Assembly: GCF_900178525.1 (NCBI RefSeq)
Contig: NZ_FXDJ01000009.1
Span: 1,262,263 to 1,326,262, forward strand
Origin: Massilibacteroides vaginae
GTDB lineage: Bacteria; Bacteroidota; Bacteroidia; Bacteroidales; Tannerellaceae
Direction of reading: 5' to 3'
Length of the DNA: 64,000 bases
Part shown: positions 19,616 to 35,467 of the stretch, piece after piece
Position numbering within the stretch: position 1 is the first letter of the stretch
Layout: each line of letters opens with the position of its first letter
Position numbers and translations under genes: made by a program
The notes under the pieces: generated by a model
Seen by the model: the letters and a program-made list of their open reading frames with translations, nothing else
Told to the model about the DNA's origin: nothing
Databases searched by the model: none

Positions 19616-19642
19616 TTCTTACATCAACCGAAAAACACGATT

Positions 19643-20911: not shown

Positions 20912-20914
20912 TAG

Positions 20915-21235
20915 TTATTCCTTTTTTGATGCTCGTGTTCGTTGTTTCAAACTTAAATCCTGTAATGCTTTTCCAATTGGGTCTTCTTTTGCTAATAAAA
21001 GAATATCGTCATCAAGTTGCAGGGCGTACAATATCCTTAAATAGATGCCGATAGATACTGTAGGCAGCCCTTTTTCGGCACGAATTACGGATAAATCGGA
21101 AACCGTAGCCCGTTCGGCTATTTGTGAAATACTCAGATTTCTTCTGAGCCTCGCCAGCCGGATTTGCTCACCTGTAATCTGCAGCTTTTGTCCCAGTTTA
21201 CGAGGCAGATTTGTTCCCATTGTGTTCTTTGCCAT
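20915..21235 (-). CDS. hipB: HipB-like XRE antitoxin/repressor
   Basis: The 106-residue protein has one helix-turn-helix of the XRE type (about 24-80; RNLSISQIAERATVSDLSVI) and a basic tail. Its place directly before hipA, with a 3-nt gap, makes it the antitoxin and autorepressor of the pair. A second possible start is Met-6 (21220). The palindromic promoter at 21245-21292 is the likely operator. Confidence 0.9.
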   Translation of the reverse strand: MAKNTMGTNLPRKLGQKLQITGEQIRLARLRRNLSISQIAERATVSDLSVIRAEKGLPTVSIGIYLRILYALQLDDDILLLAKEDPIGKALQDLSLKQRTRASKKE

Positions 21236-21390: not shown

Positions 21391-21540
21391 TATTTCTCTT
21401 TTTCTATAGCTGTAGTAAAGTTTTTCCACAACTGTAGAACAGTTTTTCCATATATATAGAAAAAGCGTTCTACAGATGTGGAAAAAGAAAAACATAGTAA
21501 TTTCTATAGAAAAACATAGTATTTCCGGCAGAAAAATATA
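21391..21540. repeat. AT-rich palindromic repeat block
   Basis: Positions 21421-21486 form a 66-bp palindrome in which 29 of 33 base pairs match; inner arms are CTGTAGAAC and GTTCTACAG. On the minus strand two 22-bp units share GGAAAAACT and CTACAG and are followed by CTATAGAAAAAG. These match the unit found twice at 60325-60368. Small further GAAAAACATAGTA repeats follow to 21540. I see no gene in 21236-21555 apart from this block and the hipBA operator. Confidence 0.7.
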
Positions 21541-21555: not shown

Positions 21556-22545
21556 TTATTTGCGTATAGCTATCCGGTATCCCGTTCCGCGGATGGATTC
21601 GATTTCCAATTCGGGTATAATAGATAAGGTATTCCGTAGGCGGTTTATCGTTTGTGAAATTCGGTTTGAAGAATCCTCTAAATCTCCCCATAATTCATTT
21701 ACGATTTCCTCTTTGGTCAGAAAGAAATCCGTTTTGTTTAAGAAAAGAGAAACCAATTGAGCAAGCGTAGGAGGTAATTTAATTTCTTGATTTCTATATT
21801 GAATCCCGGTTTTTTCCATATTAAACCGTAGCATTTCCCTGATTCTGTCAGCATCAGTAAGCTTGGCTTCTGCCCGTTTTTTCTTAACTGCTTTATACAA
21901 AAACATAATGTATAGGCAAATCAAAACCAGCCATATAAAAAGAGGGATAAACAAACGGGCGCCTGCTTTCCCAACTACGGTAGTAAAAGGCACTTTCACA
22001 TAAGCCTGAACAGCAATTTCATTGAAAATCCCTGTTTTATATTCTTTTAGAGGATAGGCTGATGCAAAGAAAGTGGTGTCGTTTCCACTGTATTGCGTCT
22101 TATTATTTTCTACCTCGGTATAACGAATACCGGTAGATAGGAATAAACCTCTGTTCTGAAGAGTTTGTTGGAAACAGCTCTTTAGGGTGTCGGGATTGAT
22201 AGGGTGTTTACCCACTAAAAGAGTTTCCCTAATAATTTTCAACTTCTCCTCTTCCGGCAAAGCACGAATTGAATCAATATTATCCTGAACCCGTTCTCCT
22301 TTTTCTGTTGTAAATACTATTTTTTCTTTAGGCCAATTGTTGTCTATTTGATGAGAATAATAAGAAAAATCTAGATAGCTTAATCGTTGATTATGGTCTT
22401 GTAATATCGCTTGTTTAAATAAGAAATCAGAATGGGATACAATACTTTTTTTACTTGTTGAAAATTTATCACTCACAAGAATACTTGTAAGTATTGTGAA
22501 TAGAAGAATGAAAATAGTTGAAATATATATCCGGATATTTTTCAT
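21556..22545 (-). CDS. membrane-anchored winged-helix (OmpR/PhoB-type) transcriptional regulator
   Basis: The 329-residue protein has an N-terminal membrane segment (about 5-24), an extracytoplasmic domain (about 25-190), a second membrane segment (about 195-218) and a cytoplasmic winged-helix domain (about 235-329). The DNA-binding part shows LTKEEIVNELWGD, NRISQTINRLRNTL and a wing ending IRGTGYRIA. There is no receiver domain, so signal and DNA binding are in one chain, as in ToxR/CadC but with reversed order. It is divergent from the NVEALA peptide operon, with 11-bp direct repeats in the shared region, the type of site PhoB-like domains bind. I chose MKNIRIYI as start over a start 7 codons upstream. 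Confidence 0.85.
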   Translation of the reverse strand: MKNIRIYISTIFILLFTILTSILVSDKFSTSKKSIVSHSDFLFKQAILQDHNQRLSYLDFSYYSHQIDNNWPKEKIVFTTEKGERVQDNIDSIRALPEEEKLKIIRETLLVGKHPINPDTLKSCFQQTLQNRGLFLSTGIRYTEVENNKTQYSGNDTTFFASAYPLKEYKTGIFNEIAVQAYVKVPFTTVVGKAGARLFIPLFIWLVLICLYIMFLYKAVKKKRAEAKLTDADRIREMLRFNMEKTGIQYRNQEIKLPPTLAQLVSLFLNKTDFFLTKEEIVNELWGDLEDSSNRISQTINRLRNTLSIIPELEIESIRGTGYRIAIRK

Positions 22546-22572
22546 TTTAAAGCAGCAATAGTACAATAATTA

Positions 22573-22580
22573 CAAATATA
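22573..22580 (-). promoter_or_regulatory. -7 box of the membrane regulator gene
   Basis: The minus strand reads TATATTTG, 28 nt upstream of the chosen start. It overlaps the first unit of the direct-repeat array, so binding there would be expected to repress the regulator's own gene. Confidence 0.55.
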
Positions 22581-22616
22581 AGGTAAATATAAGGAAGATA
22601 TAAGTAAAATATAAGG
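22574..22616 (+). promoter_or_regulatory. array of four 11-bp-phased direct repeats
   Basis: AAATATAAGG occurs at 22574, 22585 and 22607, with a variant AGATATAAGT at 22596; all starts are exactly 11 bp apart. One helical turn per unit is the layout recognised by PhoB-type winged helices. The array ends about 32 bp upstream of the -7 box of the peptide operon, which lacks a clear -33 TTG. That arrangement fits activation of the peptide operon. Confidence 0.7.
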
Positions 22617-22647
22617 AACTTTTTTCCCTGAATACTAACCCAACTCT

Positions 22648-22655
22648 TATTTTTG
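22648..22655 (+). promoter_or_regulatory. -7 box of the first NVEALA operon
   Basis: TATTTTTG fits TAnnTTTG and lies 51 nt upstream of the ATG. No -33 TTG is visible at 19-21 bp; the repeat array lies just upstream instead. Confidence 0.55.
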
Positions 22656-22705
22656 TGATTATAGAAGAAACGTGGAATATATAAACCTTACTAACTTTAA
22701 TTATT

Positions 22706-22951
22706 ATGAATACTAAAATCAAGACAGGTATTGTTGGAATTGTATGTCTTATTGGGGGAACACTTCTAGTACATACAGCAAGAAATAGTTCAGAAATAAA
22801 TCCCAATGTTTATTTACAGTTAGATAATATAAATGCATTAGCTTCTAATGAAGGAGGTAAAAATTATTGTTCTGGTTCTGGTTCCATAGATTGTAACGGA
22901 CAGAAAGTAGAGCAAAAAATATCAACATTTGGTCTCCCCATATATAAATAA
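22706..22951 (+). CDS. NVEALA-like small secreted peptide 1
   Basis: The 81-residue peptide has a Sec-type hydrophobic N-terminus (about 7-23). The region LDNINALASNEGG corresponds to the NVEALA motif region of the family. The tail after Gly-Gly has two Cys residues (KNYCSGSGSIDCNG). It is more diverged from the other two peptides in this island than they are from each other. Function is not known for the family. It is 3 nt from the thioredoxin/DUF1573 lipoprotein gene, so the two are coexpressed. Confidence 0.75.
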   Translation: MNTKIKTGIVGIVCLIGGTLLVHTARNSSEINPNVYLQLDNINALASNEGGKNYCSGSGSIDCNGQKVEQKISTFGLPIYK

Positions 22952-22954
22952 CAA

Positions 22955-23818
22955 ATGCAGACAAAATTTCGTCTATTATCTATACTATGCTTAACTATTT
23001 TGTTTGGTTGTAAGGAAACAGACAAAGAGCGTTTGACACGGTTAGTCACAGAATGGCAGGGGAAAGAGATCATTTTTCCTGAAAACCCTGTTTTCACCGT
23101 CTTCTTGACAGATACGGTTGAATACAATATTCCGTCTGCTGGTCATAAAGTGTTGGTCTATGTAGATTCATTAGGTTGTACAAGTTGTAAGCTTCAATTG
23201 GATAGGTGGAAGCAGTTTATCAGTTATACTGATTCGGTTACAAACCGAACAGTTTCGTTTCTGTTTTTCATTCATGCCAAAGATTACAAGGAAATCCGTT
23301 ATCTGCTAAAACGGGACGGTTTTAATTATCCGGTATGTCTGGATATAGATGATAGCCTGAATAAATTAAACCAATTCCCTTCGGAAATGACGTTTCAAAC
23401 ATTTCTGTTAAATGAGAAAAATGAAGTGGAAGTGATCGGGAATCCAATTCATAATTTGGCGGTAAAAGAATTGTATCTGAAACAGATTACCGGAGAGACC
23501 GAAGAAAAGGCAATTCAAACAACGGCAGAAGCAACCCCGATGGAGATTAATTTTGGAACTTTTGAGAAATCGGAAACAAAAGAAGCCGTTTTTACCGTAA
23601 AAAATACGGGAACGCAACCTTTGGTAATTATTGATGTGGCTACAACTTGCGGCTGCGCTTCACCTACCTTTGAGAAACATCCGGCTAATCCGGGAGAAGA
23701 ATTAAAGGTAACAGTTAAAATGCAACCCAAAGACGATGGATTCTTTAATGAGACAATTACCGTAAAATGTAATACAGATAAACAAATCAAGCTAATAATC
23801 AGGGGACAGGTTATCTAA
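22955..23818 (+). CDS. lipoprotein with thioredoxin-like and DUF1573 domains
   Basis: The 287 residues start with a lipoprotein signal (lipobox near LFGC, Cys-19). A thioredoxin-like part (about 45-170) carries GCTSCKLQLDRW, a CxxC motif. The C-terminal part (about 195-287) is a DUF1573 Ig-like domain (FGTFEKSETKEAVFTVKNTG and TTCGCASPTF). It is probably periplasmic or surface-exposed and could act on disulfides of the Cys-containing peptides encoded next to it; that link is inference. It is cotranscribed with peptide 1. A 266-bp duplicated leader starts at its stop codon. Confidence 0.85.
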   Translation: MQTKFRLLSILCLTILFGCKETDKERLTRLVTEWQGKEIIFPENPVFTVFLTDTVEYNIPSAGHKVLVYVDSLGCTSCKLQLDRWKQFISYTDSVTNRTVSFLFFIHAKDYKEIRYLLKRDGFNYPVCLDIDDSLNKLNQFPSEMTFQTFLLNEKNEVEVIGNPIHNLAVKELYLKQITGETEEKAIQTTAEATPMEINFGTFEKSETKEAVFTVKNTGTQPLVIIDVATTCGCASPTFEKHPANPGEELKVTVKMQPKDDGFFNETITVKCNTDKQIKLIIRGQVI

Positions 23819-24083
23819 AAGGAAGGGGAGATTGCCGATACTGTTTTGCATAGAAAAGCAATAACTCCCCTTGCCGTCCCCTCCTAAACAGAAAGGAGGC
23901 GATCAAACACCAAATGTAAAAATTAAAATCGGAAGCTAATAGCTTTAGGCTGTTGAAAGGATAGAGACAGCAAGAAATTAAATTAATAAAATCAAAAGAA
24001 ATAAATCATGAAAAAGAAACTATTATCAATTGTAGCTGTTGCGGCAGTAGCTGTTGCAGCAGCTTGGGGTTTTAATCAATCAA
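23818..24083 (+). repeat. duplicated leader, copy 1 (non-coding leader plus peptide 2 signal region)
   Basis: This 266-bp block recurs at 25753-26018 with only two mismatches and no gaps. The first 190 bp are untranslated and fold into three hairpins. The largest pairs AAGGGGAG-ATTGC (23823-23835) with GCAAT-AA-CTCCCCTT (23858-23872). The second pairs CCTCCT with AGGAGG (23880-23899). The third pairs AAGCT with AGCTT (23933-23945). The only untranslated difference (C23867 to T) keeps the stem as a G-U pair. A regulatory or stabilising RNA leader is likely; no known riboswitch was recognised. Confidence 0.8.
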
Positions 24084-24247
24084 GTAATGACGTGGCTTTA
24101 GCTAATGTTGCCTTGAGTAATGTCGAGGCGTTGGCTAGTGGAGAGTCTGGAGGAAAAGGGACTTTGTATGGTAATTCTTCAGGTACAAGTTTCTGCTGTT
24201 GTCCAGGGAGTAATAGTTGTAGTGCATCCGCATGTTCGGGCTGTTAA
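24008..24247 (+). CDS. NVEALA family small secreted peptide 2 (Cys-rich tail)
   Basis: The 79-residue peptide begins MKKKLLSIVAVAAVAVAAAW, a Sec-type signal. The family motif is LSNVEALASGESGG. The tail after Gly-Gly is short and Cys-rich: six Cys fall within 18 residues (CCC, then C, C and C at the end). The first 26 residues are identical to peptide 3 while the tail is unrelated. The NVEALA family is known only as short secreted proteins of Bacteroidales. A hairpin follows 31 nt after the stop. Confidence 0.88.
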   Translation: MKKKLLSIVAVAAVAVAAAWGFNQSSNDVALANVALSNVEALASGESGGKGTLYGNSSGTSFCCCPGSNSCSASACSGC

Positions 24248-24277
24248 TTCTCTTAAATTTAGAGTGATAAAAATTAA

Positions 24278-24307
24278 ATTCAGGGAGTCTATCGTGACTC
24301 TCTGAAT
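24278..24307 (+). terminator. hairpin after NVEALA peptide 2
   Basis: Twelve-nt arms at 24278-24289 and 24296-24307 pair with one G-U wobble around a 6-nt loop TATCGT. No U-tract follows, so it may end or protect a short peptide mRNA. The remaining gap to 24506 shows nothing else clear. Confidence 0.6.
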
Positions 24308-24506
24308 AGGTGAAATAAATTCATTGCTGTTCATTAAAGTCGCAAAGAGCAATGTGACCTAAATGCTCCAAGTTTAATTTAATTTGTGATTGTGTCCCAA
24401 TTTTAATGGGAGATTAATGAAATAGGCTGGAGTTTTTATCCGGCAAGGATAATAATTTACTGTTTGTTAATTCTTCTGTATTCTCATTATCTGAAATGTA
24501 ATTTAT

Positions 24507-25658
24507 ATGAAAAGACAAGATGTTTTATTTATTGTAATAGCTTCTTTGTTCATTGGATGTCAAGAGCAAAGAAAGCAAAGTGGTATTGAAACCATTGAAG
24601 TTCACTTGAATAAGAATGAGATAAGAACCTCCGCTATTTTTTCTGATGTTGAGTTAATTCAATTAGAAACAAATGACAACTCCTTATTAAGTAATATTTC
24701 TAAGTCTTATCTCGGCGATGACCACCTCTTTATAAAAAGTTCTCATGAATTGTTCCTCTTTAACAAGACCGGAGAATTTGTACTTAAAATTAGTGATATG
24801 GGTAATGGTCCCAATGAATACACTCGTCTTTCAGATTTTGATGTAGATGAAACCATGAAAGAAATACATATTCTGGATAAAGCTCAAAAAAAGGTGCTTG
24901 TCTATAATTACCGAGGAGAATGTCTTAGATCTTTCCCGTTTGATTTTTGGGCAATTAAACTAATAATGGGCGAAAATGAAAAGACCTATTTATACAGTGG
25001 GAATGAAGATAGTCCATCAAACAAATATAAAATAAATGTAGCTACAGCATCATCTTTTGGTGATAGACTATTTCAAATAGATAGCCGAAAGAAAGGATAT
25101 TTACACGTTAATAGTGCTCAAAACTTTTATTGGAGAAATGGCGCAATCTATTTTTATGAAGCATTTAATGATACGATTTATAGCCTGACTGAAGGAGTTC
25201 CTCAATATTATATAAACTATGACCAAGCGATTTCTAGTTCTTTTTTTGACAGAGACTTTCAAAATATAATGTCTTTCTTTCAGGAGTTTAACAAAGAAGG
25301 CTTTGTTAACTCAACCCATAATGCTTTTGAGAGCGACAACAATCTTTTCTTCTCTTGTTTTCATGGAGGAACTAAATATTTCAATGTTTATGATAAAAAT
25401 AGCAAGACTTGTTTTTCTTATAATAATATCATTGAAGACCAGTTGTTCCGTGATTACGAAATACCTTTTGTTGATGACGATTTTGAATTTTGGATAAACA
25501 GAGAAAACGAAATAACGTATTATATTCCCGCACAGCGAATAAAGGAAAATTTAGATAACTTACAAGATCAAAAGTTACGTGAAACGATTTCTTCTATAAA
25601 TGACGATGATAATCCTGTAATAATATATTGTAAAATAAAATCAATGAATGGAGTGTAG
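24507..25658 (+). CDS. 6-bladed beta-propeller-type lipoprotein
   Basis: The 383-residue protein has a lipobox at SLFIGC (Cys-18). The body alternates strands and turns without catalytic residues; ELFLFNKTGEFVLKISDMGNGPNEY (given here as a region, about residues 80-105) has the GxGPxEY signature of Bacteroidota 6-bladed beta-propeller lipoproteins. Such proteins recur next to NVEALA genes, role unknown; binding or recognition is plausible. A truncated copy of its 5' end lies at 35336-35467. Confidence 0.82.
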   Translation: MKRQDVLFIVIASLFIGCQEQRKQSGIETIEVHLNKNEIRTSAIFSDVELIQLETNDNSLLSNISKSYLGDDHLFIKSSHELFLFNKTGEFVLKISDMGNGPNEYTRLSDFDVDETMKEIHILDKAQKKVLVYNYRGECLRSFPFDFWAIKLIMGENEKTYLYSGNEDSPSNKYKINVATASSFGDRLFQIDSRKKGYLHVNSAQNFYWRNGAIYFYEAFNDTIYSLTEGVPQYYINYDQAISSSFFDRDFQNIMSFFQEFNKEGFVNSTHNAFESDNNLFFSCFHGGTKYFNVYDKNSKTCFSYNNIIEDQLFRDYEIPFVDDDFEFWINRENEITYYIPAQRIKENLDNLQDQKLRETISSINDDDNPVIIYCKIKSMNGV

Positions 25659-25693
25659 GAATATATGAGTCGCATTTTAGAAGTGTTAACTTT

Positions 25694-25732
25694 ATATCAT
25701 TTATTTATCTTACTCAGATAAATAAATGATAT
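25694..25732 (+). terminator. hairpin terminator after the propeller gene
   Basis: Perfect 16-bp arms at 25694-25709 and 25717-25732 enclose a 7-nt loop TTACTCA. It lies 36 nt after the stop and 20 nt before the second leader copy, so it separates two transcription units. Confidence 0.7.
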
Positions 25733-25752
25733 GTATGAAAATTTTGATACAT

Positions 25753-26018
25753 AAAGGAAGGGGAGATTGCCGATACTGTTTTGCATAGAAAAGCAATAAC
25801 TTCCCTTGCCGTCCCCTCCTAAACAGAAAGGAGGCGATCAAACACCAAATGTAAAAATTAAAATCGGAAGCTAATAGCTTTAGGCTGTTGAAAGGATAGA
25901 GACAGCAAGAAATTAAATTAATAAAATCAAAAGAAATAAATCATGAAAAAGAAACTATTATCAATTGTAGCTGTTGCGGCAGTAGCTGTTGCAGCGGCTT
26001 GGGGTTTTAATCAATCAA
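25753..26018 (+). repeat. duplicated leader, copy 2
   Basis: Copy of 23818-24083. It has the same three hairpins; position 25802 is T where copy 1 has C, a G-C to G-U change in the first stem. The copies diverge within the peptide codons after 26018, so the mature parts differ while leader and signal region are kept. Confidence 0.8.
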
Positions 26019-26161
26019 ATAATGAAGTCGCTTTAACAGACGTGACTTTGAGTAATGTTGAGGCGTTGGCTGGAGGCGAATCTGGAGGTACATGTTATTA
26101 TAACTATGGGGCTGCAGATTGTAACGATGTTGAAGGAGATTTATACTGTGCTTGTATTTAA
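25943..26161 (+). CDS. NVEALA family small secreted peptide 3
   Basis: The 72-residue peptide shares the first 26 residues with peptide 2 and has the motif LSNVEALAGGESGG. The tail differs completely: TCYYNYGAADCNDVEGDLYC followed by ACI, with four Cys. The Sec-type signal predicts export. Leader and signal are duplicated, the tail diversified. A perfect hairpin follows 10 nt after the stop. Confidence 0.88.
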   Translation: MKKKLLSIVAVAAVAVAAAWGFNQSNNEVALTDVTLSNVEALAGGESGGTCYYNYGAADCNDVEGDLYCACI

Positions 26162-26171
26162 ATATTAAATC

Positions 26172-26214
26172 AAGGATTGATTGTTTTGGTGTTTACCATT
26201 AACAATCAATCCTT
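26172..26214 (+). terminator. perfect hairpin after NVEALA peptide 3
   Basis: Fourteen-bp perfect arms AAGGATTGATTGTT and AACAATCAATCCTT enclose a loop that itself pairs GGT with ACC. It sits between peptide 3 and the DUF4221-type lipoprotein gene (start 26227). It could attenuate readthrough so that peptide exceeds lipoprotein. Confidence 0.7.
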
Positions 26215-26226
26215 AAAACGACAATT

Positions 26227-27369
26227 ATGAAGTGTTTTTATTTTTTTAGTCTATATGTTATTTTCTTGTGCGGCTGTACAGGGAAAAATAATCGAACTGC
26301 GCTAACTCTCAATGCAACAGGAGAGACTATTTCTTTCTCTATTGATGAAAATGTAAAAACAAAAATTCTTTGTTCACAATTGTATACTGACAAAGAAACG
26401 GGTAGAGAATATTTTACCTTCCAGAATCAGTCAAGAAACGAAATTTTGTTTTATGGAATTGATTCGCAAGAGTTAGAATTTAATATAAGACCAGAGATTA
26501 ATGGAGCAAGTGGCATCGGGTTTCTACGTGGCTATATAATCAAAAATCTAGATAGTATATTTGTTGGAACACAAGGGCAGACAAAAATAATACTGATTAA
26601 TAAAGAAGGAGAGTTGAAAGATAAATTTTCCTATGATGTTGCAGAGGATGGTAAAGCGTTATTGTATAGTTCGTTATTGAGTTTCAGAGATAGACCCGTC
26701 ACTTTTATAGCAGACAAAATGTATCCTATCACGACTTGTGACCGCCGGGCAGAAAAGAACCCCGTATCTTTTGCTATAGATATGAAAGATAAATCCGTTC
26801 GGGCTTTGTATGGGTTTCAATATCCTTCTTTTCCAAAAACAAATAATAAAGCAAAAAAGTCCGGAAAAGAATCTGATTTTAGTCGTTGTTTTGATGGACA
26901 GAGATTTGTATATTCATTCTATTTTAGTGAAGATATTTATACCTGTGATATTGACCATGTAGAAGTAAAAAGAATTGCAGCGAAAAGTAAATATATTGAT
27001 GAAATAGGATTTACTGATGATTATGGGAATCTCACGCCTAAGGATATTGCGGAAAATCCTAATTATGGAAATCTTATTTTCGATCCATATAGAGACGTCT
27101 ATTATCGCATTGCTTATCCTAAAGTAGTAATTGAACAAGGAGTTAATAGTTTGGAACTTCTGGAATATGGGGGGAAACGCTTTTCTATTATAATTTTAGA
27201 TAAGGGTTTCAACATTATAGGAGAAACTCTATTCCCTGATTATACTTATAATTCCAGAATCATGTTTGTTCGTAAAGATGGGTTATATATTTCTTCAAGC
27301 CATTTTATGAATTCAAACTACAGTGACGACATTCTTTGTTTTCAACGATTTGATTTAGTTGAGAATTAA
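26227..27369 (+). CDS. DUF4221-type lipoprotein
   Basis: The 380-residue protein has a lipobox at FLCGC (Cys-17). The rest is beta-rich, probably propeller-like, with DDILCFQRFDLV at the C-terminus. The layout resembles DUF4221 lipoproteins of Bacteroidales, which often sit near NVEALA genes; function unknown. It follows peptide 3 after the hairpin and may depend on readthrough from the second leader. About 200 bp of AT-rich sequence without a recognisable feature separates it from the next gene. Confidence 0.75.
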   Translation: MKCFYFFSLYVIFLCGCTGKNNRTALTLNATGETISFSIDENVKTKILCSQLYTDKETGREYFTFQNQSRNEILFYGIDSQELEFNIRPEINGASGIGFLRGYIIKNLDSIFVGTQGQTKIILINKEGELKDKFSYDVAEDGKALLYSSLLSFRDRPVTFIADKMYPITTCDRRAEKNPVSFAIDMKDKSVRALYGFQYPSFPKTNNKAKKSGKESDFSRCFDGQRFVYSFYFSEDIYTCDIDHVEVKRIAAKSKYIDEIGFTDDYGNLTPKDIAENPNYGNLIFDPYRDVYYRIAYPKVVIEQGVNSLELLEYGGKRFSIIILDKGFNIIGETLFPDYTYNSRIMFVRKDGLYISSSHFMNSNYSDDILCFQRFDLVEN

Positions 27370-27572
27370 TAAATAAAATTATTAAAAGCAGTTGTCCAGA
27401 AGGAAAAATATACTAATCTGAGACTTATAGATAATGATGATAGAATATCTGATTACCACCATAAATTTTAGATTTCTGGTTTGGAGAAATCAACTGTAAG
27501 GCAAGAGTATTATGTAAAAACACATATTAATATATTTACAAAAAAGCATAGCGGGAAAATTCTATATTGTCT

Positions 27573-29513
27573 ATGATACACATAATGTCATATATTATTC
27601 TGTTACTATCTTGTATTGCATGTTCATCAGTTGACGACAGACAACTAGAGTTTGCGTTACAATTCGCCGGAAAAAACAGACACGAACTTGAAAGAGTTCT
27701 AGAATATTATAAGAAAGAGCCACAAAAGCTTGCTGCAGCTCGTTTTCTGATAAAAGATATGCCTGGCTTGTATTCTTATAAATGCTCTCAGGTTGATTCG
27801 GTCAAATCTGTCTTAACAAAAGAAATGGAGGCTGGGACTACTTATGGACTACAGTCTATAATAATAGACGATGGGCTAATAAAGAAGTGGAAAAATACAT
27901 CTTTAGAGAATTGCGAAAAAGTATTTGATGCGCATATTATCACATCAGATTATTTAATTGAAAATATTGATTTGTCTTTTGAGGTTTGGAATAAATATTC
28001 ATGGAATAAAGCTCTTTGTTTTGAGGATTTTTGTGAATTAATTCTTCCATATAGACTTGGGAATGAACCTTTGGAAAGTTGGAGAAAACATTATTATGAA
28101 TATTATTCTTCTTTGTTAGATTCTGTTTATAAGGGCGATAATTTGATTAAAGCTTGTGATACGGTTGCTAAGATTATAAATGATGAGGGATTCTTTCTCT
28201 GTACTGATTTTAATTTACCCAACCTGGGTGCACTTTATTTAAAAGAGAATAGAATCGGCTATTGTCGTGATGCCTGTGACTTTATCCTTTATGTTATGCG
28301 CTCAATAGGTATCCCAACCGCTACGGATTTCTATCATTATTCACCAGACAATCGGTTAGGGCATAGTTGGAATGTTGTGAGAGACACAACTGGGGTTTAT
28401 TTACAGTGTGGATATACTGTTTTTGGAACAGAAACAAACGTGAGGGATGACGGGCGTAAAAAAGGAAAAGTGTATAGGTTTTGTTATGGGAGTCAGGAAA
28501 AGTACTTCAAAGGCTCCTCTTACGACAATTCTTTGCCTGAGTTATTCAAGAACAGGAAAATAAAAGATGTTACCGCTGATTACTTTGGACAGAATAAGGT
28601 TTCCATACCTATTAGTCAGCACGAAGATGATCATGCTTTTCTCGGTGTTTTCACAATTAAAGGATGGATCCCTATTGGTGTTGGCAGAGTAGAGAATGAC
28701 ACTGCCGTTTTTAATAATTTGGAACCGAATGTTATTTTTCAGACACTATTGAATATAAACGGACATTTACATCCTGAAAATTATCCTTTTACCTATACGG
28801 GAGAGAAAATGCACTATTATATTCCTGATCTACGGCAAATGGAAGATGCTTTTTTAACAAGGAAGTATCCCATTCGTTTCTACACCGTTAACAGTTTGAA
28901 CAGAAATGTAAGAGGCGCTAAAATCTTAGGATCTTTGCATAAGAACTTTTCTTATTACGAAATCATTTATGAGATAAAAGATACAGTAACAACAAATAGA
29001 AATATAATCAACTTTACAGAGCCATTGAATTATAGGTATATACGTTATGTCTCGCCAAAAGATAAACCTCTCGAATTGGCAGAATTTAGTGTCTATGGCA
29101 AAAGTGACATCCCCATACCTCTACACATAATAGATAGCATTATTCCTGTACATACAAACAACAAGTTTAGAGTCGATCATATTATTGATAATGATCCGTT
29201 AACGTTTACATTGTCAAAAGACTCCACAACGTTTATAACTTTTGACATAGGGAAAGTGGCAGAAATAGAAAAATTATTGTTTATCCCTCGCAATGATGAG
29301 AATTTCATACATGTAGGGGATATGTATGAACTGTTTTACAATAACGGAGTAAATGGTTGGTCATCGCTGGGTAAACAAATTGCAGAAAGTAATATTTTAA
29401 AATATAAAGTTCCCAAAGGAGCTTTATTGTGGCTTCGAAATTTGACGAAAGGGCAAGAGGAACATGTTTTTTATATGAGAAATGACAAACAGATATTTGC
29501 AGCAGACTTATAA
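27573..29513 (+). CDS. transglutaminase-like lipoprotein 1 with C-terminal discoidin-like domain
   Basis: The 646-residue protein has a lipobox in LLSCIAC. A helical N-terminal region (about 20-200) precedes a transglutaminase-like core. The apparent Cys-His-Asp triad is C231 in GYCRDACDF, H264 in GHSWN and D271 in VRDTTG. A C-terminal beta-sandwich resembling F5/8 type C domains (about 490-640) has IDNDPLTF and TFDIGK. Such cores act as proteases, amidases or cross-linkers; which one is unknown. I chose the ATG at 27573; 27585 is also possible. It is a tandem paralogue of the next gene. Confidence 0.8.
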   Translation: MIHIMSYIILLLSCIACSSVDDRQLEFALQFAGKNRHELERVLEYYKKEPQKLAAARFLIKDMPGLYSYKCSQVDSVKSVLTKEMEAGTTYGLQSIIIDDGLIKKWKNTSLENCEKVFDAHIITSDYLIENIDLSFEVWNKYSWNKALCFEDFCELILPYRLGNEPLESWRKHYYEYYSSLLDSVYKGDNLIKACDTVAKIINDEGFFLCTDFNLPNLGALYLKENRIGYCRDACDFILYVMRSIGIPTATDFYHYSPDNRLGHSWNVVRDTTGVYLQCGYTVFGTETNVRDDGRKKGKVYRFCYGSQEKYFKGSSYDNSLPELFKNRKIKDVTADYFGQNKVSIPISQHEDDHAFLGVFTIKGWIPIGVGRVENDTAVFNNLEPNVIFQTLLNINGHLHPENYPFTYTGEKMHYYIPDLRQMEDAFLTRKYPIRFYTVNSLNRNVRGAKILGSLHKNFSYYEIIYEIKDTVTTNRNIINFTEPLNYRYIRYVSPKDKPLELAEFSVYGKSDIPIPLHIIDSIIPVHTNNKFRVDHIIDNDPLTFTLSKDSTTFITFDIGKVAEIEKLLFIPRNDENFIHVGDMYELFYNNGVNGWSSLGKQIAESNILKYKVPKGALLWLRNLTKGQEEHVFYMRNDKQIFAADL

Positions 29514-29541
29514 TAAATTTGACAACCTAAGGATTGTAATT

Positions 29542-31563
29542 ATGAAGATAAAGATAGTAAATGAAATGTTAAAAAACGATTGTGTTCAAAAGATGGACAT
29601 CCTGTGTGTTGTGTTTACTTGTCTGTCATTTTTTATAAGTTTCAGTTGTAGCTTTAATGCGAAAGATACTAAATTGGATAACGCCTTTTCTCTTGCAGGC
29701 AAAAATAGAGAGGAATTAGAAAAAGTATTACTACATTATCAACAGAACGACAATGATTCATTAAAATACAAAGCCGCCTGCTTTCTGATTGAAAATATTG
29801 CATATCATTACTCTTATGAGAATGAAGTGTTTGAAGAATATAAAAATTCTCTTAAACAGATTATTTGTTTAGCGGATACATTGAAATATAAAACGATGAT
29901 GGATAATTTTCTGAAAGATACAATTGCTCACATTAATCAGGTACAATTCTCAAAAAAGAAAAGTAAACCAATCTGTGACCTGGAAACGATCTCTGCAGAA
30001 TATCTGATAGCAAACATTGATCATGCATTTATGGTTTGGGAGAAGCAGCCATGGGGTAAGCATATTTCGTTCGACTTGTTTTGCCATGAGATACTTCCTT
30101 ACCGTATTGTAGATGAGCCAATCGAAGAATGGAGACAGGCCTATTATGATTATTTTCAGCCTGTATTAGATTCTTTGTTGACAGATGATAGTCCGATAAC
30201 GGCTTGTCAGCTTGTTTATGACACAATTGTGAAAATGAAATGGCATTTTATTCCTGACTTACCCGTTCCCCATTTAGGAGGGAAAATACTATTAGACTAT
30301 CGTTTAGAAAATTGCCGTGAGTACAGTGATTTTGCATTATATGTCATGAGGGCATTAGGGATCTGCGGAGGGGTAGATCTACTGATCCAGAATCCGGATT
30401 ATAACTTTACGTACCATTACTGGAATTATGTACGGGACATTACAGGTCAAATAAAAGAATTTGAATTATATGCCATGCGCCCGGATAGTGTCAGAGAGGA
30501 TGTTCGGATGAAAGGAGTTGTATATCGACAGAACTTTTGCATACAGAAAGAATCACTCCGTTTCTTATATCCTGACAAGGATATTCCTCCAACACTCGTT
30601 ACTCCCTTTTTATCGAATGTTTCGGATGATTATTTTAAAGGGTATGACATAAATATACCTGCTTCAAAAATAGAAGAGTTACTTTATTTATATGTGTTCG
30701 ACAATAAAGAATGGAGGCCTATAATCTGGTCTGACATAAAAAAAGGGGGCGCGAATTTCCACAGCCTTGAGCCTGGAATCGCATTTTTCCCCGGTCACTA
30801 TGAAGGAGGTAAGTTTGAACCGGTATCAGATCCTTTTATTTTGGCAAAAGATAAATCTGCAAAGTTCTTTACTCCGGATACGGTAAAAAGAGTAGACCTT
30901 GTGCTCAGACGGAAATTCCGAAAAAGGAGTCATTTGATGGACCGCTATGCTAAAAGGACCTATCAGGGACAATTTGAAGGTGCTAACAGACCGGATTTTA
31001 AAGAGGGAGAGAGTTTATTTCCGGTGTACAATATAGAGGAACCGGAATATTACGAAAGAGAATTAGCTCTTGACCGAAAATTCAGATATATCAGATATCT
31101 TTCTCGTGATACATTATGTTGTAATATGGCAGAATTGGAGTTTTTAGGTATAGGAGATACGTTAATAGATGGAGATATAATTGGTTCGGAATGTTTATTT
31201 GGAGAGAATACTAAATACAGTAATAAGACTGTGTTTGATAGAGATCCGCTTACTTTTTTTCATGCTAAAGATACGACGGAAGGATGGGTCGGAATGGATT
31301 TTGGGAGTCCTCAAAGAATAGAGAAAATACGTTTTCTTTTCCGCAATGATGATAATAATATACGGGAGGGAGATATCTACGAACTGTTTTACTACACAAA
31401 GGATGGGTATAAAAAGTCATTAGGTAAACAAACCGGCAACAGAGAGCAATGTCTCACTTTCAGAAACTGTCCTTCCAATGCTTTGTATCTTTTACATGAT
31501 CATACGAGGGGACGGGAACAACGCATTTTCTCGTATGAAGATGGTAAACAAATCTGGTGGTGA
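29542..31563 (+). CDS. transglutaminase-like lipoprotein 2 with C-terminal discoidin-like domain
   Basis: The 673-residue paralogue of the preceding protein shares the order helical region, transglutaminase-like core, discoidin-like end. The triad is C258 (ENCREYSDF), H292 (YHYWN) and D299 (VRDITG). The C-terminal domain shows FDRDPLTFF and GMDFGSPQRIEKI. The start at 29542 gives a long N-terminus before the hydrophobic signal (lipobox SFSC); Met at 29593 would give a tighter signal. It lies 28 nt after its paralogue and abuts the signal peptidase gene. Confidence 0.8.
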   Translation: MKIKIVNEMLKNDCVQKMDILCVVFTCLSFFISFSCSFNAKDTKLDNAFSLAGKNREELEKVLLHYQQNDNDSLKYKAACFLIENIAYHYSYENEVFEEYKNSLKQIICLADTLKYKTMMDNFLKDTIAHINQVQFSKKKSKPICDLETISAEYLIANIDHAFMVWEKQPWGKHISFDLFCHEILPYRIVDEPIEEWRQAYYDYFQPVLDSLLTDDSPITACQLVYDTIVKMKWHFIPDLPVPHLGGKILLDYRLENCREYSDFALYVMRALGICGGVDLLIQNPDYNFTYHYWNYVRDITGQIKEFELYAMRPDSVREDVRMKGVVYRQNFCIQKESLRFLYPDKDIPPTLVTPFLSNVSDDYFKGYDINIPASKIEELLYLYVFDNKEWRPIIWSDIKKGGANFHSLEPGIAFFPGHYEGGKFEPVSDPFILAKDKSAKFFTPDTVKRVDLVLRRKFRKRSHLMDRYAKRTYQGQFEGANRPDFKEGESLFPVYNIEEPEYYERELALDRKFRYIRYLSRDTLCCNMAELEFLGIGDTLIDGDIIGSECLFGENTKYSNKTVFDRDPLTFFHAKDTTEGWVGMDFGSPQRIEKIRFLFRNDDNNIREGDIYELFYYTKDGYKKSLGKQTGNREQCLTFRNCPSNALYLLHDHTRGREQRIFSYEDGKQIWW

Positions 31564-31571
31564 AGGTGAGA

Positions 31572-32438
31572 ATGAGAATAAATATCAAACATATTACTTC
31601 CTTAATCATAAACACCCTATTCTACCTCTGCATGGTCGGAATAGTGTGGGTATTTTGTCAGATATTTCTTATATCCTCCTTCAAAATACCCAGCGACTCT
31701 ATGGCTCCGGAAGTTGTAGCAGGTGATCATGTGCTTGTGTTAAAACCGCTGATTGGAGCCCGGCTGTTTAATCTTACCGATAAGCAACCGGACGTCTATC
31801 GTTTGCCTGGTCTGAGCCCAATCAGCCGGAATGATATACTGGTGTTTAATTTTCCTTGTCCTAAGGATTGGAGCCGGGTTGAAATGGATATGATGAGTTA
31901 TTATATCAAGCGATGCGTAGGGATGCCTGGAGATTCGCTTCGTATTTCAAATGGCCTCTATCTGGTAAATGGTGTCGATACCCCTTTAGGTAATATAGTT
32001 TCTCAACAGATATTTAGTAAAAGGAAGAATAATACATTTGACGATGGTGTTTTCAGAAGTTTTCCTTATGATTCCATAATGAACTGGAATATCAAGGATT
32101 TTGGTCCTCTTTATATACCGAAGAAAGGAGCGATAATTCCTATGGACAGGACTAATAGTGTGCTTTACAAAAAAGTAATTGAATGGGAACAGCAGCAAGA
32201 ACTTCACATTGCAAATGATTCGACGATACATCTTGGCACTGAGGTAATCTATTCTTATTGTTTCCGGAAGAACTACTATTTTATGGCTGGCGATCGTGTA
32301 GAAGATTCGCAAGACTCGCGTTATTGGGGATTGCTACCGGAGGAATATATTGTAGGAAAGGCATGGCTTGTATGGAAGTCTATTGATCCTTATACGGATA
32401 AATTCCGGTGGAATAGGTTTTTGAAACGGATTAGATAA
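31572..32438 (+). CDS. signal peptidase I (S26), divergent with large insert
   Basis: The 288-residue protein has a single N-terminal membrane anchor, catalytic Ser43 in PSDSMAPEVVAGDHVLV and the general-base Lys113 in YYIKRCVGMPGDSLRI. The last box is MAGDRVEDSQDSRYWGLLP. An insert of about 120 residues separates the Lys box from the last box, as in other Bacteroidota enzymes. It is in the peptide island, probably cotranscribed with the transglutaminase-like genes. A GTG at 31560 would overlap the upstream stop as GTGA; the ATG at 31572 is preferred. It may process the island's own exported peptides. Confidence 0.88.
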   Translation: MRINIKHITSLIINTLFYLCMVGIVWVFCQIFLISSFKIPSDSMAPEVVAGDHVLVLKPLIGARLFNLTDKQPDVYRLPGLSPISRNDILVFNFPCPKDWSRVEMDMMSYYIKRCVGMPGDSLRISNGLYLVNGVDTPLGNIVSQQIFSKRKNNTFDDGVFRSFPYDSIMNWNIKDFGPLYIPKKGAIIPMDRTNSVLYKKVIEWEQQQELHIANDSTIHLGTEVIYSYCFRKNYYFMAGDRVEDSQDSRYWGLLPEEYIVGKAWLVWKSIDPYTDKFRWNRFLKRIR

Positions 32439-32445
32439 GAGACGT

Positions 32446-34254
32446 ATGGAGAAGTGGAGATACTATATTGGTTATTCTTTAGTAGCGATTACAGGTGTAT
32501 TGATATTGTGCACTGTTTTTGAGGGTGACAACGCATTGGTAAACGGACTTGTGATGGGGAAAGTCTGCTGGGCGCAGCGGATTGTTCCTTTCTTTTGTCT
32601 TGCGGTATTACTTGGAGTATTGTTCAAAGGGGGAAGTTGCTTTTTTTTATCCTTTGCTGATCTTGCTTTATTAGCGTTTGTTGGTATTACGTATTTGTTT
32701 TATGATAAAAGCCTTAATCCAGAACCGGAGAAATTATTTTTTGAGGGACAGTTATTGCTTCTATGGTTTGCTCTTCGTATCGCACTGTCTACTTATCCCG
32801 GTCTGAAAAACTTTTTTATATTATTATTCCTTTTCATTGGTGGTGTTGAAGTAGTTACCGGGTTGCTGCAGTTATATGGTATGCAAAGTTCTAATCACCA
32901 CCTGTTTCGACTAACGGGTTCGTTCTATAATCCGGGACCGTATTCCGGTTTTCTGTCTATGCTGCTTCCTCTTTCCCTTTTTATGGCATTGAAAACAAAG
33001 AAGATTGCTGACAGACGAGGGCGGTTTTTATATAAGTTTCTCCATTATTCTGCCTGGCTAGTCGTAGCTCTTATTTTCATTGTATTACCTTCGGGGATGA
33101 GTAGAGCGGCCTGGATTGCGGCTACCATTTCTTCAGGCTGGGTATATTGGATACAGGAGATAGGGTTACAAAAAAGTAAGTGCTGGATCACAGAACATAA
33201 GAAATCAGCTATCGCTTTGTCTGTTGCTTTTTTTGTTTTGTTTATAACGTTCTCTGCGGGAATCTACCTTTTGAAGAAAGATTCTGCAAATGGACGTCTT
33301 TTGCTTTGGAAGATTACGTCCATGGCTATAACAGAACAACCTTTTACAGGAACCGGAGTAGGCGGTTTTCCCGCTACTTACGGCAAACAACAAGCTGCTT
33401 ATTTTGCATCAGGCAACTATTCGCAGACGGAAGCGTTAGTTGCTGGTGCGCCGGAGTATGCGTTCAACGAATTTCTTCAGATCGGTGTTGAACGTGGAAT
33501 ATTAGTCTTACTAATTTTCTTTTCTTTTCTTGGAATCAGTATATATAAAGGTGTGAAAAACCGGAAGTATGGAACTGTAGGTGGTATATTTGCATTGTGT
33601 GTGTTTTCGTTAGCCTCCTATCCTCTACAACTGCCGGATTTTCCAATCGTTCTGGTTTTTCTTTCTGCTATTTCTGTTACCGGAAGAGAATATGGAAAAT
33701 CGGCAAGTAGTTTTTTTATTCTAATACCTACTTTTATTTTCTCTGCTGTCATTTATAATGCTCAACAGGATACAGGGAAACAATATAGAGAATGGAGTAG
33801 ACTACAACAACTTTATAATAGTAAGGCGTATGAGGTTGCTTTACCATACTACGAGGCACTGTATCCTTCTCTTAAACACAAACCGGAGTTCCTGTTTGAA
33901 ATGGGACAATGTCAAAGCAAAACCGGACAGTATGATGGTGCGGTTGTAACGCTAAAGAGAGCTTCCTTGTTGAGCGCTGACCCAATGATTCACTATATGA
34001 TCGCCAAGAATGAACAACAAAGAGGGAACTATGAAGAAGCGGAACAGATTCTTATTCATGCGATAAATATTCTACCTGAACGTATTTATCCTTATTACTT
34101 ATTGGTGTATCTTTACAATGAACCGGGCTTTTATCAGGAAGATAAACTTAAAGCCTCGGCTAACGCCGTACTTACAAAAGAACCGAAAGTTCTATCCTCG
34201 GCAATACAAGAAATGAGAGAAGAAACCCGAAAAATAATATCAAATGTATTATGA
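32446..34254 (+). CDS. Wzy/O-antigen ligase-like membrane protein with C-terminal TPRs
   Basis: The 602-residue protein has about ten membrane spans (about 5-430). The region GRLLLWKITSMAI and the large extracytoplasmic loop (about 285-345), with GTGVGGFP and EYAFNEFLQIGVERG, match the Wzy_C/WaaL ligase-polymerase fold. A C-terminal TPR region (about 455-590) follows. Such proteins transfer glycan chains onto lipid or protein. Its substrate in this island is unknown; glycosylation of exported products is one possibility. Seven nt after the signal peptidase; ATGA overlap with the next gene. Confidence 0.82.
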   Translation: MEKWRYYIGYSLVAITGVLILCTVFEGDNALVNGLVMGKVCWAQRIVPFFCLAVLLGVLFKGGSCFFLSFADLALLAFVGITYLFYDKSLNPEPEKLFFEGQLLLLWFALRIALSTYPGLKNFFILLFLFIGGVEVVTGLLQLYGMQSSNHHLFRLTGSFYNPGPYSGFLSMLLPLSLFMALKTKKIADRRGRFLYKFLHYSAWLVVALIFIVLPSGMSRAAWIAATISSGWVYWIQEIGLQKSKCWITEHKKSAIALSVAFFVLFITFSAGIYLLKKDSANGRLLLWKITSMAITEQPFTGTGVGGFPATYGKQQAAYFASGNYSQTEALVAGAPEYAFNEFLQIGVERGILVLLIFFSFLGISIYKGVKNRKYGTVGGIFALCVFSLASYPLQLPDFPIVLVFLSAISVTGREYGKSASSFFILIPTFIFSAVIYNAQQDTGKQYREWSRLQQLYNSKAYEVALPYYEALYPSLKHKPEFLFEMGQCQSKTGQYDGAVVTLKRASLLSADPMIHYMIAKNEQQRGNYEEAEQILIHAINILPERIYPYYLLVYLYNEPGFYQEDKLKASANAVLTKEPKVLSSAIQEMREETRKIISNVL

Positions 34255-35306
34255 GATCACTATTCGCTTTATGTATATTACTGTTGTTAATTAGCTGCAA
34301 TAGAGGTTCAAAAGAGAAATATTCTCGATATTCATCTTTTGAGACATCAGAATCAATATATGCGGAAGATATTGAGTTAGATACTATTTTATTCCGTTAT
34401 CCATTTCGTATATCGGTTCATGAAAATATCGCTGTAGTTTTGGACTTACATCATGTGGATCATTTCCTTCATGCTTTCTCTTATCCCGAGTGGAAACATC
34501 TTGTTTCATTTGGGCGGCGAGGACAAGCTCCGGAGGAAATGTTGTCCGCTGAAACAATCCGTGTTTCTTCTTCTGATTCGATCTGGACTTTGGATGCGAA
34601 TAAAATGGAAATTACCCGCTGGAGTATAGACATAATACAGAAAACAGCCACTCGGGAAGAAGCAATTCCTCTAGACAAGCAGCTTATTCGAACGTTGGAT
34701 TTTTGTTTGACTGATTCGGGCTTTATCGTACCCGATTATACCGGTGAATACAGATATAGCTGTATTGATCCGGCAGGCAGCCTGCTCCAGTCTTATGAAC
34801 CTATACCTACAGAAGAATCTTATGCGGATATTGCCCGACCGGCTCTGGCACAAGCCTGGCGAAGTTTTATAGATTATCTTCCCGGCAAACAACTGTTGGT
34901 GATGGCAACTCAATTAGGAGAGGTGCTTGAGATCTACAATCTCGAAAAAGGAACAAAGAAAGTACTCTATGGTCCTAATGGAGAACCGAAATTCCAAATA
35001 CATGCAGGTGAAGGTATTCCCACAGGTATAATGGGTTTCAGCGATGTAAAGATAACAGAGAAATATATTTTTGCCGTCTTCCATGGACGATCATTTAAAG
35101 AAATAGCACAAATGTATGATAGAGGAGAAAATCCAGAAGACGGAGGTCGCTACCTTTGTGTTTTTGATCATGAAGGAATTCCAATTAGAAAATACATGTT
35201 AGATCACGCGATCTACGGCATAAGTATAGATGAATCCCAAGGAACCATTATTGCCACCGATGTAAATCGTGATGACCCGATAATTGCATATAAGATTCCT
35301 CTATAA
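34251..35306 (+). CDS. BF3164-family beta-propeller lipoprotein
   Basis: The 351-residue protein has a lipobox at LLISC (Cys-16). The propeller-like body includes LVSFGRRGQAPEEM, typical of the BF3164/TolB-like family of Bacteroidales. No enzyme motif is seen. Its ATG overlaps the upstream stop (ATGA), so translational coupling is likely. It is the last intact gene of the island operon. Confidence 0.8.
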   Translation: MRSLFALCILLLLISCNRGSKEKYSRYSSFETSESIYAEDIELDTILFRYPFRISVHENIAVVLDLHHVDHFLHAFSYPEWKHLVSFGRRGQAPEEMLSAETIRVSSSDSIWTLDANKMEITRWSIDIIQKTATREEAIPLDKQLIRTLDFCLTDSGFIVPDYTGEYRYSCIDPAGSLLQSYEPIPTEESYADIARPALAQAWRSFIDYLPGKQLLVMATQLGEVLEIYNLEKGTKKVLYGPNGEPKFQIHAGEGIPTGIMGFSDVKITEKYIFAVFHGRSFKEIAQMYDRGENPEDGGRYLCVFDHEGIPIRKYMLDHAIYGISIDESQGTIIATDVNRDDPIIAYKIPL

Positions 35307-35335
35307 ATAAGAACCATGAAGAATAAGGTGATTTT

Positions 35336-35467
35336 ATGAAAAGACAAGATGTTTTATTTATTATAATAGTTTCTTTGTTCTTTGGATGTCAAGAACAAAG
35401 AAAGCAAAGTGGTATTGAAACTATTGAAGTTCATTTGAATAAGCATGAGATAAGTTCTCTCTTTTAA
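35336..35467 (+). pseudogene. truncated 5' copy of the propeller lipoprotein gene at 24507
   Basis: The first 39-40 codons match the gene at 24507-25658 (MKRQDVLFI, lipobox GCQEQRKQ, IETIEVHLNK), then identity ends and the frame stops after 43 codons. It has a signal and lipobox but no propeller, so it is a remnant rather than a gene. It marks the right edge of the island. The rest of the gap to 35746 shows only the rpoN promoter. Confidence 0.85.

Follow-up and report, generated by a model that had tools for sequence, protein, structure and literature searches.

Recurrent NVEALA peptide gene clusters in Bacteroidales as a candidate regulated peptide secretion system

We analysed a 64,000-nucleotide stretch of the Massilibacteroides vaginae genome (contig NZ_FXDJ01000009.1; this whole stretch is called the window), which holds an island of three NVEALA (PF14055) peptide genes and their partner genes. 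Profile scans of the window proteins find a winged-helix regulator, a DUF1573 lipoprotein, three propeller-type lipoproteins, two transglutaminase-like lipoproteins, a signal peptidase I and a Wzy-like membrane protein beside the peptides. The locus probably encodes a regulated pathway for the production, maturation and export of membrane-anchored, disulfide-bonded small peptides, usually paired with a propeller lipoprotein. A first-pass annotation had named these families from the sequence, and in most cases the profiles agree: all three NVEALA open reading frames (ORFs) score above the Pfam cut-off of 27 bits, the propellers match the DUF5128, DUF4221 and TolB_like families, the signal peptidase matches TIGR02227 (94.7 bits against 47), the Wzy-like protein has Wzy_C and TPR domains, and housekeeping genes do start right after the island, with the sigma-54 gene at 35747. 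The winged-helix regulator is confirmed (Trans_reg_C, 42.9 bits against 26.2), with its start corrected to the ATG at 22545. The protein described as a redox lipoprotein is a DUF1573 protein (90.4 bits) with a CxxC-bearing N-terminus, but its likeness to the oxidoreductase StoA is weak (31.7 bits, below the cut-off). Of the limits proposed for the island, 21556–35467, the left one is too narrow: the island reaches to 10612 and includes an hlyD–RND–outer-membrane factor (OMF)–RND operon (10612–19507, minus strand). This pump operon, the operator repeats and the small RNA (sRNA) genes on the opposite strand were absent from the earlier annotation.

Forward and reverse co-occurrence rules out a chance assembly of the island. 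The forward set takes in 59 stretches, each at most 20 kb long, around PF14055 matches in 45 genomes (25 of the window's family and 20 outside it), and the controls are 40 stretches at fixed round positions in 11 genomes. The profiles used to scan all of them derive from the proteins of the window and from the matches to these. The 59 stretches were selected by PF14055, so the presence of NVEALA in them is by design; several genomes contribute more than one stretch, some stretches are cut by contig ends, and a locus of the window's own genome with a weak fourth NVEALA match (L073) is excluded. Every partner is commoner near NVEALA genes than in controls: the TolB-like propeller (53/59 against 3/40), DUF1573 (46/59 against 0/40), the transglutaminase-like protein (37/59 against 2/40), the regulator (35/59 against 1/40), DUF5128 (35/59 against 4/40), Wzy (29/59 against 1/40) and the signal peptidase (28/59 against 0/40). 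The difference is weakest, and modest, for HlyD (18/59 against 3/40, p = 0.005), RND (14/59 against 2/40, p = 0.011) and DUF4221 (13/59 against 2/40, p = 0.017); the p-values ignore relatedness. Outside the window's family, DUF1573 is found in 15/20, the signal peptidase in 9/20 and the regulator in 6/20 genomes. PF14055 itself is patchy: of 392 genomes sampled across the order 29 have a match, and within the family 61 of 123 do. The reverse search started from a profile of 27 cluster signal peptidases in named genomes, and 79 distinct loci were kept of 393 relatives. These loci contain a propeller (66/79), Wzy (65/79), DUF1573 (53/79), the transglutaminase-like protein (52/79), NVEALA (51/79), the regulator (32/79), HlyD (27/79), RND (25/79) and OMF (21/79). 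A relaxed motif search of all 28 NVEALA-less loci adds one further NVEALA gene (controls 0/20). The two sets overlap, for example in Parabacteroides acidifaciens. The hosts of the signal-peptidase loci are Parabacteroides, Bacteroides, Phocaeicola, Tannerella, Proteiniphilum and metagenome-assembled genomes, some labelled Dysgonamonadaceae or Prevotellaceae. The joint system suggested by the first-pass annotation was to be given up if NVEALA genes elsewhere did not keep these partners beyond chance; it passes this test and is supported by enrichment of the partners in both directions around the genes it had pointed to; peptide maturation and export keep the conditional form in which they were proposed there.

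The genes recur in one order, with many variations: the regulator, one or more units of NVEALA plus propeller lipoprotein, the transglutaminase-like gene, the signal peptidase, Wzy-TPR and HlyD–RND–OMF–RND. The next labelled gene on the same strand after NVEALA is a propeller lipoprotein in 119/133 cases, and the labelled divergent neighbour of the regulator is NVEALA in 31/36. Adjacencies counted in the gene maps are 17 for transglutaminase-like to signal peptidase, 18 for signal peptidase to Wzy, 8 for Wzy to HlyD and 14 for HlyD to RND. NVEALA clusters lie on a 95-kb plasmid of Phocaeicola dorei CL06T03C03 (L200) and a 93-kb plasmid of P. vulgatus CL10T00C06 (L201), and the system can therefore sit on mobile DNA; the plasmid records annotate genes for NVEALA, propeller, signal peptidase, O-antigen ligase and transglutaminase proteins close to one another, with a redoxin in one of the plasmids. 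Peptide and propeller units are repeated in tandem at L061, L103 and L108, and L061 (G316:C6) has seven NVEALA genes with propellers arrayed inside 20 kb. The second, small locus of the window's own genome (L073, about C2:506500-511660) lies near tuf-like and ribosomal-protein-like genes and carries DUF1573, NVEALA, TolB, a glycosyltransferase (UDPGT/EryCIII-like), a signal peptidase with 54% identity and a lone C39-like domain, in which the first catalytic-type Cys appears to be replaced.

Table 1. Features of the NVEALA island, with positions in the window
Feature	Position	Strand	Basis
RND permease 2, last in hlyD operon, distinct ortholog group	10612–13833	−	ortholog comparison
OMF, TolC family	13837–15315	−	family match
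RND permease 1	15322–18429	−	family match
HlyD / RND periplasmic adaptor	18440–19507	−	TIGR01730, 141.5 bits against cut-off 94.9
Operator-like repeats 5' of hlyD (TATAAG N5 TATAAG at 19596–19612)	19579–19629		genome-wide pattern search
Membrane-anchored one-component regulator, PhoB/ToxR-type winged helix, predicted topology	21556–22545	−	PF00486, structure model
Four 11-bp-spaced direct repeats, divergent regulator/NVEALA-1 promoter	22576–22621		repeat analysis
NVEALA peptide 1, regulator-adjacent kind, core CSGSGSIDCNG	22706–22951	+	PF14055, 31.0 bits
CxxC and DUF1573 lipoprotein	22955–23818	+	DUF1573 profile, conserved Cys75/Cys78
Predicted sRNA gene copy 1, ends approximate	23816–23904	−	structure model, orientation tests
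Parts of sRNA copy 1: −7 box, CCUCCUUU stretch, terminator hairpin	23911–23918 (−7 box); 23821–23875 (hairpin)	−	prediction
NVEALA peptide 2	24008–24247	+	PF14055, 41.7 bits
DUF5128 six-bladed propeller lipoprotein	24507–25658	+	148.5 bits; PDB relative 4raa
Predicted sRNA gene copy 2	25751–25839	−	189-nt region 99% identical to copy 1
NVEALA peptide 3	25943–26161	+	PF14055, 41.8 bits
DUF4221 propeller-type lipoprotein	26227–27369	+	134.5 bits; PDB relative 3s9j
Transglutaminase-like lipoprotein copy 1, C-terminal F5/8-type domain	27567–29513	+	fold search, conserved Cys/His
Transglutaminase-like lipoprotein copy 2	29539–31563	+	homology to copy 1; own Pfam transglutaminase match none
Dedicated signal peptidase I (S26), Ser48/Lys118 invariant	31557–32438	+	TIGR02227
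Wzy / O-antigen-ligase-like membrane protein, C-terminal TPR	32446–34254	+	PF04932, 53.6 bits
TolB-like (BF3164-type) six-bladed propeller lipoprotein	34251–35306	+	PF15869, 291.4 bits
Truncated remnant of a second DUF5128 gene	35332–35454	+	93% to 24503–24625 (DUF5128 gene start)

The NVEALA precursors combine a constant leader with a variable core. Across 238 unique sequences the leader reads L-S-D-L-A-L-x-N-[VI]-E-A-L-A-x-x-E, with N at 94, E at 94, A at 93, L at 96, A at 97 and the last E at 92 percent, while in the cores mainly the cysteines and some glycine are conserved. The number of cysteines is even in 139/162 thinned cores (p = 2e-21). A lipobox-like motif is seen in 8/188 precursors. 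NVEALA genes 2 and 3 of the window share a 300-nt repeat with 96% identity. Within loci, the core co-varies with the TolB propeller that follows it (r = 0.258 against 0.183 ± 0.023, n = 93; 0/500 permutations reach the observed value), and the leader does not (77/500 permutations). Constant leader, variable core and this co-variation are consistent with a bacteriocin-like system, in which the putative mature peptides kill or inhibit relatives, the propeller is the cognate immunity protein and tandem duplication reflects an arms race, and so are the tandem units, the plasmid location and the decayed units at 35332–35454 of the window and at L222. We regard this as possible but on balance doubtful. 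Duplication of units could account for part of the co-variation and might by itself yield it, and no matching signal is found for DUF5128. The cluster resembles C39-ABC peptide bacteriocin and microcin clusters in its conserved leader, variable Cys-rich core, dedicated peptidase and export, neighbouring candidate partner genes and tandem variable units. It differs in that signal peptidase I and an RND pump occupy the place of the exporter, and no C39-ABC exporter is present among the window genes scanned; the only ABC-ATPase cluster in the maps occurs in 1/59 test against 3/20 control stretches. The leader of C39-ABC clusters ends in a double glycine, whereas that of NVEALA ends in A-L-A-x-x-E, with more than 90% conservation in each of the four fixed columns.

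The regulator fits the ToxR/CadC type. An OmpR/PhoB-type DNA-binding domain is found, and the membrane anchor is read from the sequence and the model (pLDDT, the predicted local distance difference test score, 88). Fold matches of the model include the DNA-binding domains of SaeR, PhoB, ToxR (8b4d) and CadC (5ju7); the searches used 21556–22542, without the Met. As in ToxR/CadC regulators, a membrane anchor and an extracytoplasmic domain are predicted together with a PhoB-type winged helix, but here the winged helix is C-terminal, behind two hydrophobic segments in the model, and the operator repeats vary by locus. The divergent regulator/NVEALA-1 promoter contains four TATAAG repeats with 11-bp spacing. 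TATAAGN5TATAAG has 5 matches in the 3.71-Mb genome, 3 in this promoter, 1 in the hlyD promoter (19596–19612) and 1 elsewhere; the reversed repeat pattern has 2. Strict 11-bp repeats are present in 8/34 regulator promoters against 1/118 control intergenic regions (Fisher 2e-5; mean of five shuffles 0.0), and the other 26/34 related promoters miss the strict threshold. Regulator promoters of other loci have different repeat sequences with the same spacing.

A distinct kind of NVEALA peptide with the core CxGxG[SND]x[DE]C makes up 20/148, and 18 of these 20 come first after the divergent regulator; regulator-adjacent NVEALA peptides number 31 in all. This placement, the differing operator repeats and the replacement of the regulator by a histidine kinase and response regulator in some loci would suit a signalling role, in which the regulator-adjacent peptide is sensed by, or controls, the membrane regulator and the other peptides are read by lipoprotein receptors. 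We consider that unlikely. Coevolution of regulator and peptide is weak, and the partial correlation between the sensor and the NVEALA-1 core falls to 0.19 once signal peptidase distances are taken into account (n = 25).

Several partner proteins have conserved catalytic or candidate redox residues. In the DUF1573 lipoprotein Cys75 and Cys78 are each kept in 47/50, and small accessory genes that encode a CxxC motif are met repeatedly, in 11 and 8 loci. The Ser48/Lys118 dyad of the signal peptidase is present in 31/31. Other exported soluble proteins of the window's cluster look like lipoproteins, leaving the NVEALA precursors as the only evident clients of this peptidase there. In this it resembles SipW of the SipW-TasA system and pilus SipA, which are operon-specialised signal peptidases I with small surface or secreted clients; unlike theirs, the presumed NVEALA clients are Cys-rich and have A-L-A far from the hydrophobic core, and the window proteins that were scanned include neither a pilin nor a TasA relative.

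The two lipoproteins called transglutaminase-like in the first-pass annotation hold that name through fold and conserved residues and not through Pfam: copy 1 matches Transglut_core below the cut-off (E 0.12) and copy 2 has no match. The copies are 32% identical. Cys233 and His266, which would be the Cys and His of a Cys-His(-Asp) active site, are each conserved in 45/46. The fold search returns 3isr (E 4.6e-3) and TgpA (6g4h, E 9.6e-3), both with probability 1.00 and a root-mean-square deviation of about 4.2 over 121–130 columns; FXIIIa has E 1.6e-4 but a template modelling (TM) score of 0.18. Fold search and Cys/His conservation support membership of the transglutaminase-like superfamily; matches to an F5/8-type C-terminal domain are weak. 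With the O-antigen-ligase-like protein, the many lipoproteins and a genome (G350) whose pump operon adjoins Wzy without NVEALA, these features might indicate a surface structure: the cell would assemble or cross-link peptides and lipoproteins on its exterior, and the pump would export another substrate. This seems to us quite unlikely, since the cores vary freely except at Cys, unlike structural subunits, and the transglutaminase-like gene is not seen in 22/59 stretches.

Adaptor, RND permeases and OMF lie in the gene order of one predicted operon. RND permease 2 has one ortholog in 16/16 genomes examined, with 36–77% identity outside its own genome against 23–27% for the next best RND protein. 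In 13/16 genomes it lies no more than about 14 kb from an NVEALA gene; this sample includes genomes chosen for having the pump. The composition of HlyD, two RND permeases and OMF is that of two-permease pumps such as MdtABC, but permease 2 forms a separate ortholog group, is often peptide-linked and in the window shares the peptide operator. RND permease 2 has a second Wzy-like gene behind it in two genomes (L196, L198).

Upstream of many NVEALA genes lies an element that looks like an sRNA gene on the opposite strand. The gap upstream of NVEALA genes has a median of 219 nt and is at least 120 nt in 133/166, compared with medians of 0–79 nt for the other cluster genes. AGGAGG[TC] occurs in 75/196 unique NVEALA upstream leaders, none of them directly after the regulator. 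A hairpin of species-variable sequence stands upstream of AGGAGG (z < −2 in 42/59 against 9/60 control intergenic regions), and the element lies at a median of 117 nt upstream of NVEALA starts. General structure of the leader on the NVEALA strand is not supported: the first 60 NVEALA leaders have a median z of −1.01, DUF5128 leaders −0.94 and TolB leaders −1.38 (15/46 below −3). NVEALA leaders as a whole therefore do not stand out, and the structural signal sits in the element. Given a plain MAFFT alignment of 37 sequences, in which the arms differ in register, RNAalifold predicts no pairs; covariation was therefore counted on 8 hand-picked alignable sequences out of 59. In these, 8/11 stem pairs show two-sided changes, and 94.3% of cells pair; shuffles reach 80.3%, and slid controls no more than 51.1%.

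A model built from these eight sequences and run on NVEALA and signal-peptidase loci, with overlapping loci counted twice, has 67 matches beyond the window at E < 0.1. The gene that comes next is NVEALA in 58/67, among them the model's own 8 training sequences; of the other nine, L100 has an NVEALA ORF missed by gene calling and one is the antisense of a palindrome. E is 0.014 for one window copy and 0.071 for the other, and the 40 control stretches give no match. A scan of the window's genome, which scored 150 of 618 candidates and does not list the two window elements, has its best match ahead of the fourth NVEALA gene. In about 38 Mb of Bacteroides sequence, from seven whole genomes, there are 24 matches with E ≤ 0.05, one antisense duplicate being dropped; PF14055 follows 92–218 nt downstream in 14/24, and one more has an NVEALA ORF. 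All 19 matches with E < 1e-4 adjoin system genes; 13 directly precede NVEALA, and the others stand ahead of a gene for a propeller, DUF1573 or a transglutaminase-like protein or within a decayed cluster. Among the five weaker ones, two precede NVEALA, two are elsewhere (L226, L227) and the fifth (G514:C62:1547247) is counted without a neighbour assigned. A decayed NVEALA cluster with regulator and TolB pieces (L222, G512:C4) still has the element. Rfam gives no match at the window element or in six further loci.

The strand was assigned from 67 matches (the two window copies in, L183 and one antisense duplicate out) thinned to 44, of which 42 gave stems. Stem mismatches are A·C in 23 and G·T in 3 cases (p = 9e-5, relatedness ignored). 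A-runs precede the 5' arm in 31/42, equivalent to a U-tract on the other strand, and T-runs follow the 3' arm in 1/42. CAAANNTA, the complement of the Bacteroides −7 box TANNTTTG, follows AGGAGG in 30/36 against 1/37 in the next interval. A −33-like CAA peak at 19–20 nt is seen in 13/30, a result conditional on the 30 of 31 picked sequences with both AGGAGG and the −7 box. Mismatch asymmetry, U-tract side and −7/−33 boxes together point to an RNA on the strand opposite NVEALA, and the element looks like a gene with a promoter, a 5' ACCUCCUUU stretch, resembling the 3' tail of 16S rRNA, and a Rho-independent terminator, placed before many non-first NVEALA genes. That the hairpin is instead a leader RNA of the NVEALA mRNA, as its position upstream of the starts and a stable fold on the NVEALA strand too might suggest, is improbable given these same three orientation signals. 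Action of the sRNA on its own divergent NVEALA leader through UCCUUUC:GAAAGGA has no support as a general mode (at least 7 bp in 17/30 against 11.7 expected, median z −0.29), and a micro-ORF following AGGAGG is visible by eye only in certain leaders. FopS sRNAs of Bacteroides have a 5' single-stranded stretch and a terminator hairpin (PMC11697453), and the predicted NVEALA-linked sRNA has the same plan. Compared on plan and gene linkage, it differs in being bound to NVEALA clusters and in its 5' ACCUCCUUU.

On the reading of the locus as a regulated peptide export system, the following course is proposed. The membrane winged-helix sensor would bind the 11-bp repeats found both in the divergent promoter of its own gene and in front of hlyD, and peptide genes and export pump would be turned on together. 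NVEALA precursors would use the Sec pathway and remain anchored by their N-terminal hydrophobic segment. The CxxC-bearing lipoproteins may assist disulfide formation, as CxxC motifs and Cys parity suggest. The dedicated signal peptidase I would cleave after A-L-A of NVEALA and release the core, and HlyD-RND-OMF-RND would carry the peptide over the outer membrane, a role suggested by gene linkage and by the operator they have in common; possibly the pump also carries a glycan that the Wzy-like protein attaches. The propeller lipoprotein usually observed after a peptide gene may be its immunity protein, receptor or carrier. The divergent sRNA, with its 16S-tail-like ACCUCCUUU stretch and terminator, probably adds post-transcriptional control. 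Competition between relatives, or signalling among them, is the likeliest purpose.

A number of results weigh against parts of this scheme. The usual signal-peptidase site is closer to the hydrophobic core than the A-L-A of NVEALA, which ends 18–28 residues (median 24) beyond the hydrophobic segment in 188 precursors, and 69/188 have a strict AxA beside that segment. Only 28/59 NVEALA stretches show the signal peptidase (contig ends cut some), and 15/58 signal-peptidase loci of at least 12 kb are without a detected NVEALA gene. Co-variation between core and DUF5128 propeller is not found (59/500 permutations, n = 44). Pfam does not confirm a thioredoxin fold in the two CxxC accessory proteins scanned. 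Small molecules are the better-known substrates of RND pumps, and the pump operon occurs without any PF14055 match in G180, is unlinked to NVEALA in G350 and is about 30 kb away in G420. For the sRNA, further pair types number 9 against 13.2 in shuffles, so that one of five covariation measures does not favour the stem, and no significant complementarity to its own NVEALA leader is found in 30 units.

Genes of an apparent cluster of this kind in B. thetaiotaomicron (BT0662, 0664, 0667 and 0669; O-antigen ligase, propeller, signal peptidase and RND adaptor) are listed singly in tables of PMC10434189. Regulation by iron was set aside: the second-column values there, 0.113 to 0.353, are taken as not significant and do not count as evidence. 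In 5.39 million open-access papers, with subscription journals and preprints outside the scope, NVEALA does not occur as a word, and no description of the gene set as a whole was recognised through the partner families. The cluster appears to be undescribed as a system so far and named only gene by gene. Two features by which classic peptide bacteriocin clusters are defined are absent from it and we know of no other kind of system that fits, and for these reasons we rank it as new; if killing and immunity were shown, it would count as a variant of bacteriocin systems. Tentatively, as a prospect a little short of even, we suggest that Bacteroidales have, across the order and also on plasmids, a peptide secretion system not described so far, with an RND pump and private signal peptidase, propeller-paired disulfide-rich peptides, and divergent sRNAs that mimic the 16S tail and control peptide genes or the cluster. 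Bacteroidales are among the dominant human gut bacteria. A true system of this kind would offer a new export route that combines an RND pump with a private signal peptidase, many variable secreted peptides to assay for activity, and a system-bound sRNA family. It would give a functional context to the NVEALA, DUF1573, DUF5128, DUF4221 and TolB_like families; the pairs would represent a new competition system if they are toxin and immunity, and a new communication system if they are signals.

Three features flank the pump operon and the regulator. A HipA-type kinase gene and an Xre-like regulator gene, a possible toxin–antitoxin pair, lie between them at 19643–21235; HipA (19643–20911) is not supported as a part of the system, being present in 0/59 related stretches. 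Directly downstream of the pump operon, 9853–10578 encodes a weakly thioredoxin-like protein with a type IX secretion sorting tail. Between the Xre and regulator genes, 21421–21486 is a near-perfect palindrome with 33-nt arms, 88% complementary, perhaps a bidirectional terminator.

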